Shown here: positions 17,092 through 20,000 of the stretch, piece after piece
Layout of the letters: every line of letters starts with the position of its first letter
How positions within the stretch are numbered: position 1 is the first letter of the stretch
Assembly: GCF_026151205.1 (NCBI RefSeq)
Contig: NC_087082.1
Span: forward strand, 7,447,908-7,511,907
Source: Bolinopsis microptera
Lineage: Eukaryota; Ctenophora; Tentaculata; Lobata; Bolinopsidae
DNA length: 64,000 nucleotides
Direction of reading: 5' to 3'
Position numbers and translations under genes: made by a program
Notes under the pieces: model-generated
Told to the model about the DNA's origin: nothing
The model's input: only the letters and a program-made list of their open reading frames with translations
Database searches by the model: none

Positions 17092-20000
17092 TCAAGGGTT
17101 CCCAAAGCGGAAAGCTGCTAGAAGCTCTTTCAGTGAAACCACAGGAAAAATGAACCTGAGTCGAAATTGACCACAGGACTAAATAAAAACAAAACAAAAT
17201 AAACACAGAATACATCGACACAGAAGTGAGAAAATAACACAAAGAACACCTTGACCACAGACCATATTAACCAAAAAACAAACATAGACCATTCTAACAC
17301 AGAAATTAACCACGGAACAATGTAAACACAGACCATATTGACACATACCATATATTAACCACGTAACAAGACAACCACAGAGCATACTAACACAGACCAT
17401 ATTAACAAAACAATCACAGACCATATTGATACAGAAATTAACCACATAACATAAGGAATCTGACCTGCCGGTAAGAGCTCCGAGTGATTTAGACGCCCTA
17501 CATCGACTACCCCCACTCAGCGAGGGGGTGCTGTCTGGACCTGTAAGTGTGACCATGACAACAAGTAGTGGTGTCAACATGACAACAAAATACCATGGCA
17601 TCAATATCAGGACAATTTCAAACCGAGTTGTATTGAGTATTTAATCAAACTGGTAAAAAAATTGAATTCAAAGTCCCAACTCAGAGCAAATCTGTACCCT
17701 AAGAACTCACTGTAAAATGGTGAATCTAGAGGTGATGTACAGCCGTCACTTTTGTAACTGTTACTTCTTTCGCTCCTAAAACTCTCACTCCTCTCACTCC
17801 TGAAGCTGTCGCTTCTCAGACGTTTACTGGTCTTGGGAGTAGCCGGGGTTTGTGGCGGGGCTTTGTTGGCGAGACCAAAGGGGAGCTGTGTAGTATCTGA
17901 GCAGTTGGTTCTGGGGTAGGAAGTGTTAAAAGGGAGCTGTGTGGTATCTGAGCAGTTGGTCCTGGGGTAGGAAGTGTTAAAAGGGAGCTGTGTGGTATCT
18001 GAGCAGTTGGTCCTGGGGTAGGAGGTGTTAAAAGGGAGCTGTGTGGTATCTGAGCAGTTGGTCCTGGGGTAGGAAGTGTTAAAAGGGAGCTGTGTAGTAT
18101 CTGAGCAGTTGGTCCTAGGGTAGGAAGTGTTAAAAGGGAGCTGTGTGGTATCTGAGCAGTTGGTCCTGGGGTAGGAAGTGTTAAAAGGGAGCTGTGTGGT
18201 ATCTGAGCAGTTGGTCCTGGGGTAGGAAGTGTTAAAAGGGAGCTGTGTGGTATCTGAGCAGTTGGTCCTGGGGTAGGAGGTGTTAAAAGGGAGCTGTGTG
18301 GTATCTGAGCAGTTGGTCCTGGGGTAGGATGTGTTAAAAGGGAGCTGTGTGGTATCTGAGCAGTTGGTCCTGGGGTAGGAAGTGTTAAAAGGGAGCTGTG
18401 TGGTATCTGAGCAGTTGGTCCTGGGGTAGGAGGTGTTAAAAGGGAGCTGTGTGGTATCTGAGCAGTTGGTCCTGGGGTAGGAAGTGTTTTAGGCAACAGT
18501 AGTAACCAGTTAGTGGTAACTTAGGGTGTTTTTAAAGTCAACCTCATATTAGCCAGTTGATAATTCCCTTTGTATGTGCGACTAAAAATATAGATAGTTC
18601 TATTTATATCTGTAACATATGAATTGATTTCTCATCAACATCCTAATGAGATATTTAATAGAATATCTAGCTATTGCATCAGTCATGTTACACGCAGTGT
18701 TTAAAAATTTAAGAGCGACGGTGTATACCTGAATTGAATAAAAATCTAGCTCAGAAGTTTGGAAAATTGCCAGAACATTTAACAAGGTCAAAGTTAGACA
18801 GGTGAGATAAAGCAAAATGTTATTATGTTTGGAAAAGTTTGGAAAATTGCCAGAACATTTAGCAAGGTGAAAGTTAGACAGGTGAGATAAAGCAAAATGT
18901 TATCATGTTTGGAAAAGTTTGGAAAATTGCCAGAACATTTAACATGGTGAAAGTTAGACAGGTGAGATAAAGCAAAATGTTATTATGTTTGGAAAAGTTT
19001 GGAAAATTGCCAGAACATTTAACAAGGTGAAAGTTAGACAGGTGAGATAAAGCACAATGTTATCATGTTTGGAAAAGTTTGGAAAATTACCAGAACATTT
19101 AACAAGGTGAAAGTTAGACAGGTGAGATAAAGCACAATGTTATCATGTTTGGAAAAGTTTGGAAAATTACCAGAACATTTAACAAGGTGAAAGTTAAACA
19201 GGTGAGATAAAGCAAAATGTTATTATGTTTGGAAAAGTTTGGAAAATTACCAGAACATTTAGCAAGGTGAAAGTTAGACAGGTGAGATAAAGCAAAATGT
19301 TATTATGCTTGGAAAATTGCCAGAACATTTAGCAAGGTGAAAGTTAGACAGGTGAGATAAAGCACAATGTTATTGTTTATTTTTGATTGTAGTTGACGAA
19401 ATGAGAGTCTCCACTCAGTGTGTTAAAACATAATTCTTTGTCGACGTTTCGGCTACATGCCTTTGTCATAAACAGGACGTACTGAAAACTTACATAGCTG
19501 CAAAAATACAATGTTAAAATAATCTATTAATACTACGAAAATAACAACAACAAATAACATCTTAAAACACAACAACGATCACAAATTTTTCCAAAAGAAA
19601 CATAAAATATAACGGCTAAAAGAAACCACACTGCAACAAGCCGTGAACAATTCCTCATAGTACTTTTTTTTTGGAAAACAAATAGAATAATATATAACAA
19701 TATAATTTACAACAATGTATATCGACCAGATTTGAATCATCAATTAATTGAGTCCATAGGACTCATAATTAGCTAAGCTTTGATACAAAGCATGCGAACT
19801 CAAAGTCGCTTTCACAACTTTTGTCAACTGAATTGACAGAAGATCTGGTTCCTCTTATACACAGGAGAACCAGCTTCCTGATAATAAATGAAAGTTTACA
19901 TCTTAAAAAATTTACAACATCTGAATAATTTTGTTGAGTTTTATATGCTATTTTCTCACACAATAATCTAAAGAATGTTCTCGCTTCTGGCCCGCTGCCA

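Follow-up and report, generated by a model that had tools for sequence, protein, structure and literature searches.

The window analyzed here, a 64,000-nucleotide stretch of Bolinopsis microptera DNA (contig NC_087082.1), holds a minus-strand gene with a 51-bp minisatellite in which a splice acceptor can be recognized in every unit, and the question raised by this locus is whether the array is intron or exon and, if exon, which protein it lengthens and where. The sequence-only reading that preceded the present analysis had taken the array for a coding region whose length is set by both repeat number and splicing, with 17910 as its basic acceptor.

The array and its unit

The array, located by TRF at window positions 17877-18488 of the minus strand, has a 51-bp period, 12.0 copies, 97% matches and 0% indels. 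Within each unit the exon start comes first and is followed by the intron end; a partial unit (18488-18471) joins the array to the unique sequence upstream, and the downstream exon is met at 17877. The array unit is a tandem copy of a single 3′ splice junction, i.e., of the intron-exon boundary itself, an attribute that, like the identity of the gene as an E2F, was added to the earlier description by the present analysis.

17877..18488, minus strand: 51-bp array, each unit made of 18 nt of intron end (AACACTTCCTACCCCAGG) and 33 nt of exon start (ACCAACTGCTCAGATACCACACAGCTCCCTTTT)
17911..18471, minus strand: the eleven additional units, 187 residues that would enter the protein if splicing takes the acceptor at 18471

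The claim that an acceptor is present in every unit was borne out, as there are 12 YAG acceptors with exon starts at 17910, 17961 and so on up to 18471, each 51 bp from the next. On the other hand, the dinucleotide GT is absent from the consensus unit and from all five single variants tested, so that no new intron can arise from the unit alone, and intron gain by tandem duplication, considered as a candidate outcome, was rejected on this ground.

The unit appears to be private to this gene insofar as, among the best candidates scored, a 27-base unit core allowed up to 3 mismatches is matched 12 times in the 264.65-Mb genome, always within the E2F array, while a genome-wide control with the reversed pattern, scored likewise on the best candidates, yields 0 matches. 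A match of the array open reading frame to zf_Tbcl_2 (E 3.4e-9) was discarded as repeat inflation, 0 stretches passing when taken alone. A search of the genome for COX1 gave no match. Elsewhere in the window a second 51-bp array (61458-61715) has 5.1 copies, all identical, and is open in a frame of each strand, and between positions 3689 and 6663 open frames follow one another every ~624 bp, several of them as near-identical copies.

The gene that carries the array

The exons surrounding the array could be assembled into a gene with the following parts (the slash marks a splice boundary).

24027..24142, minus strand: E2F exon A, VKRKLLSEEPQVKYEITNLDENPKSPRTPKHPPLLLNHR, acceptor TTTGCAG/GTAAAG, donor CACAG/GTATAA, ending in phase 2
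18472..24026, minus strand: intron from exon A to the first acceptor; near each end lies an array of a related 70/80-bp unit
17711..17910, minus strand: E2F exon B proper in its shortest form, TNCSDTTQLPFGLANKAPPQTPATPKTSKRLRSDSF...DSPFY, donor TTTACA/GTGAGT
17465..17540, minus strand: E2F exon C, SPDSTPSLSGGSRCRASKSLGALTG, start of the winged-helix domain, donor GGCAG/GTCAGA
L003:7710-7552 (C11:7435617-7435459), in flanking DNA: E2F exon D, completing the winged-helix domain with exon C

Exon B begins at 17910 or at 18471, according to the acceptor used, and ends at 17711; indeed, the limits 17711 and 18471 set by the sequence-only reading coincide exactly with the donor side of this exon and with the first acceptor.

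Both the identity of the gene, which encodes an E2F-type transcription factor, and its anatomy are firm. Residues 122-183 of the spliced product match PF02319 with E 1.1e-24 over profile positions 2-63 of 65, E2F-4 (1cf7_A) aligns to the same product from GSRCRASKSLGALTGRFCQLL onward (E 6.5e-17), and the product contains the E2F/DP winged-helix DNA-binding domain with RRIYDITNVLEG. The identification came by way of the flanking DNA, where the winged-helix exon alone (L003:7551-7733, ~30 kb downstream) matches PF02319 with E 6.3e-23; the neighboring minus-strand exons taken alone gave no meaningful Pfam match, and among 107 of the 141 minus-strand open reading frames above window position 23900 Pfam returned only two weak single matches, the best with E 0.005. 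Further downstream, one L003 exon matches the coiled coil-marked box (CC-MB) domain (PF16421, E 2.5e-5) at 24.7 bits, which is below the curated cut-off of 33.9.

Along exons A-D the KRKL exon is followed by a linker and then by the winged helix. The sequence VKRKLLSEE is located in exon A, and its KRKL resembles the N-terminal cyclin-A-binding KRKL/KRRL motif of E2F1-3. The array, if translated, is part of the linker directly before the DNA-binding domain. A search with a few motifs upstream of 24142 did not reveal a first N-terminal exon.

The 30-kb intron between exons C and D harbors a nested gene with seven plus-strand Sushi exons, one of them just under the Pfam cut-off. As to the array-bearing intron, its 80-bp array (window 18755-19374) and the related 70-bp array (23796-24022) lie near opposite ends, and one of the two begins a few bases past the donor.

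Reading frame and silent variation

In the frame fixed by the flanking exons (minus frame TNCSDTTQLPFNTSYPR) the array is open across all units, its period being a multiple of 3, so that the claim of eleven open extra units is confirmed; a second minus frame is likewise open. Since exon A ends in phase 2 and the junction with CAG/G or CAG/A gives an Arg codon, all 12 acceptor positions are in frame. Exons A-B-C-D are phase-matched with the first as with the last acceptor and remain open into the E2F domain in both cases, as verified by translating these two products, the ten positions in between following from the 51-bp spacing. That acceptor choice could add or remove whole units without a frameshift, as previously proposed, is therefore supported.

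Five changes distinguish the array units from one another (at site 18, twice at site 39, and at sites 48 and 51) and in a codon-substitution test 5/5 are synonymous in the exon-fixed frame, whereas in the two remaining minus frames all five are non-synonymous, as had been claimed for the other long open one. The terminal exon copy contributes a further silent change at site 30 (CCT/CCC), which brings the count to six changes at five sites, all silent. If changes of these kinds are placed at random in the array units, the probability of such an outcome is 0.0049 for the five changes and 0.027 for the four sites; with the terminal exon copy included the values become 0.0018 (six changes) and 0.0097 (five sites). 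This test was post hoc, though with a frame fixed beforehand by the exons, and the number of independent events is small because duplication spreads variants among units.

The significance of these properties can be judged against other arrays of the same genome. The control sample comprised the window, six flanking sequences of 10 kb each and another 20 of that size, these last drawn from contigs C1-C4, for a total of 27 sequences and 324 kb, in which 32 arrays have at least 4 copies of a 20-200 bp unit. A period divisible by 3 is found in 15 of the 32 arrays, 13 of these 15 having an open frame, and an acceptor-like motif is present in the unit of 6/32, the E2F array being counted each time. 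A period of this kind, an open frame and an acceptor motif are thus common here and constitute weak evidence when taken alone. Codon phase behaves differently: 11 of the 17 other arrays compared have at least 4 variable columns and in 0/11 do all columns fall in one phase, the nearest approach being the array at L003:741 with 4/5; among the other six, the array at L004:1008 has just 2 variable columns, both in the same phase. In this comparison the extraction of units was not alike in the two scripts used, and the 70-bp array, which lies outside the 32, is represented by only 3 units.

Choice of the acceptor

If all 12 acceptors are in frame, the length of the protein depends on which of them is chosen. 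Splicing tends to take the first AG after the branch site, and a candidate branch site precedes the 5′-most acceptor.

18509..18513, minus strand: CTAAC branch-site match with the A at 18510, 38 nt upstream of acceptor 18471, no AG between

Such a layout, i.e., CTAAC without an intervening AG, occurs at 5/261 other AGs of the intron, its arrays included. Acceptors were scored at 7 of the 12 array positions and at exons A, C, D and E (the string for exon E being 1 base short). The six other scored array acceptors have only TTAAC at 15 nt, and the layout is seen at 0/4 of the remaining E2F acceptors examined: at exon D an AG separates the CTAAC, at 28 nt, from the acceptor, exons C and E have no such match, and exon A has TTAAC at 16 nt. 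First-AG choice would make 18471 the leading acceptor, in which case all eleven extra units would be in the mRNA. Accordingly, the layout points to 18471 rather than to 17910, the basic acceptor of the sequence-only reading. This argument is weakened by exon A, whose TTAAC at 16 nt suggests that a TTAAC such as that of the array, at 15 nt, may suffice; furthermore, the pyrimidine tract is richer at the downstream acceptors (0.82 vs 0.68).

Arrays on other splice junctions

Three further arrays were found on splice junctions, all of them on the donor side.

11369..11670, plus strand: 32-bp array on the donor of a Sushi exon of the nested gene (CAGCCCCCTACTTGCACTATAG/GTTAGTGACT), resuming at 13597-16304 past an insertion
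L004:2202-2544, minus strand: 38-bp array, end of an aminotransferase exon (..LHACAHNPTG) joined to GTTAGTTAGT
L055:2292-2887, plus strand: 54-bp array of 11 units, end of a GMP synthase C-terminal exon joined to GTAAATCCT

The Sushi-donor array has about 9 copies before the insertion and about 80 beyond it. The insertion that splits it (window 11670-13597) has inverted GGGGGGTGTAACCCAAAAAAACCCAA-like ends and looks like a DNA transposon. The aminotransferase exon matches PF00155 with E 2.8e-7 and the units of its array are identical (9/9), while the GMP synthase exon matches PF00958 with E 1.7e-21 in 10 stretches. The GMP synthase array is open and has a period that is a multiple of 3; 2/4 of its changes are non-silent (as counted on 10 of the 11 units, the last codon of the dropped edge unit also differing). 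The three arrays look like neutral intronic sequence, given that two of the periods are not multiples of 3, that GA replaces GT in 5/82 units and that half of the four changes in the third array are non-silent. It follows from the features of the GMP synthase array that an array can be splice-bearing, in frame and open and still be untranslated.

These junctions were sought by eye in the edge open reading frames of 26 arrays (22 of the 32 and 4 with fewer copies or shorter units); 10 such frames were submitted to Pfam, with 2 convincing results, aminotransferase and GMP synthase, and 8 without. In two more arrays (L036:5690-6136 and L042:6411-7056) the first units look donor-like at the end of an open frame; they have no family match and were left uncounted. 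The 4 junctions, or 3 without E2F, compare with roughly 0.7-2.0 coincidences on the correct side expected by chance, a figure that rests on assumed junction densities of 0.5-1.5 per kb. They correspond to 5 of the 32 TRF rows, the Sushi array being split in two, and the E2F array, as the starting finding, is to be excluded from any count of enrichment. The comparison hints that arrays may be enriched on splice junctions in this genome.

The observations fit a simple rule, whereby use of the first donor keeps a donor-side array intronic and use of the first AG makes an acceptor-side array exonic. A more general extension, speculative and on the whole somewhat unlikely, is that minisatellites are preferentially seeded on junctions, where duplication of the whole junction would be harmless, those on the donor side staying intronic and those on the acceptor side being captured by first-AG choice and turned into new coding sequence, which would provide a steady supply of in-frame disordered protein segments, in this case within a cell-cycle transcription factor.

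Proposed origin and expression of the array

The explanation preferred here is that the minisatellite originated at the 3′ splice junction of an E2F exon, a 51-bp segment (18 nt of intron and 33 nt of exon) having been duplicated in tandem and having grown to 12 junction copies, all in one codon phase, each with a pyrimidine tract and an AG and none with a 5′ splice site. Splicing of exon A (24027) to any copy would leave the E2F mRNA in frame and add 0 to 11 units of 17 residues to the linker that joins the KRKL exon to the DNA-binding domain. The 5′-most acceptor (18471), having the CTAAC match and being the first AG after it, would be the main one, so that most transcripts would hold the whole array, i.e., about 187 extra, probably disordered, linker residues, and the downstream acceptors may yield shorter forms. 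On the strength of frame, silent variation and acceptor layout, translation of these 187 residues as a longer linker before the DNA-binding domain is held to be probable, by a modest margin over even chances.

The main competitor, to which an appreciable though clearly smaller probability is assigned, is that the array is intronic, only 17910 being spliced and the upstream copies being decoys or inert leftovers of a neutral junction minisatellite. The similar donor-side arrays of the same genome speak for it: two have periods of 32 and 38 bp, neither divisible by 3, and in the Sushi array GA replaces the donor GT in 5 of the 82 units extracted; so does the GMP synthase array, whose 54-bp units are open and in frame and nonetheless show two non-silent changes out of four (10/11 units), and so does the richer pyrimidine tract of the downstream acceptors. 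Against it stand the 51-bp period, the lack of indels, changes that are exclusively silent at five sites, the retention of YAG at 12/12 acceptors and the better branch-site match before the first acceptor. A third possibility, in line with the sequence-only reading and overlapping the preferred explanation, is that many acceptors are used to a comparable extent and generate a ladder of E2F isoforms differing by 17 residues. Beyond the first, the array acceptors scarcely differ within the unit and keep one phase, and the downstream TTAAC layout resembles that of the exon A acceptor; equal use is nevertheless not expected, since the 5′-most acceptor differs in having the branch-site match and in coming first after it, and the ladder is accordingly regarded as rather improbable. 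That assembly or polishing has in part created the copy number, or the uniformity of the units, is far less probable still: a single assembly is available and its units are nearly identical, but units with variants are scattered among the others and the 12 places can be told apart.

Should the preferred explanation hold, units made of 3′ junctions in the same phase couple repeat instability to protein length, with no frameshift as long as whole units change, and in E2F the array would set the distance between the cyclin-binding-like motif and the DNA-binding domain. Together with its donor-side counterparts, the array would illustrate how intron sequence can be turned directly into coding sequence.

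Comparison with known systems

The nearest published case found is the potato RdRp gene PGSC0003DMG402000361, in which a two-copy tandem duplication spans an intron-exon boundary and the use of a cryptic donor in the exon upstream gave rise to a new intron (PMC4974935). As in that gene, an intron end and an exon start with a putative branch site, a pyrimidine tract and a 3′ splice site have been duplicated; unlike it, with its 2 copies and its new intron, the E2F array consists of 12 junction copies and offers no donor. The outcome differs correspondingly, being an in-frame extension of the exon or a choice of acceptor: acceptors, and not introns, have been multiplied.

A search of titles and abstract openings in the literature found no minisatellite whose units each include a splice acceptor. 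With respect to the protein family, the gene is like E2F1-3 in having a winged helix, with a KRKL upstream that resembles theirs, and differs in the long serine-rich linker with a repeat array between the two.

Coding VNTRs, such as those of human MUC1 and PER3, are in-frame tandem repeats by which a protein is lengthened. To our knowledge, their units sit inside an exon and have no splice acceptor each; the E2F array shares the in-frame lengthening and differs by the acceptor in each unit. NAGNAG tandem acceptors, for their part, are closely spaced and add or remove whole codons, whereas the E2F acceptors are 51 bp apart, twelve-fold and expandable by repeat mutation. Coding VNTRs and tandem acceptors are each known; what sets the E2F array apart is their fusion in one unit.
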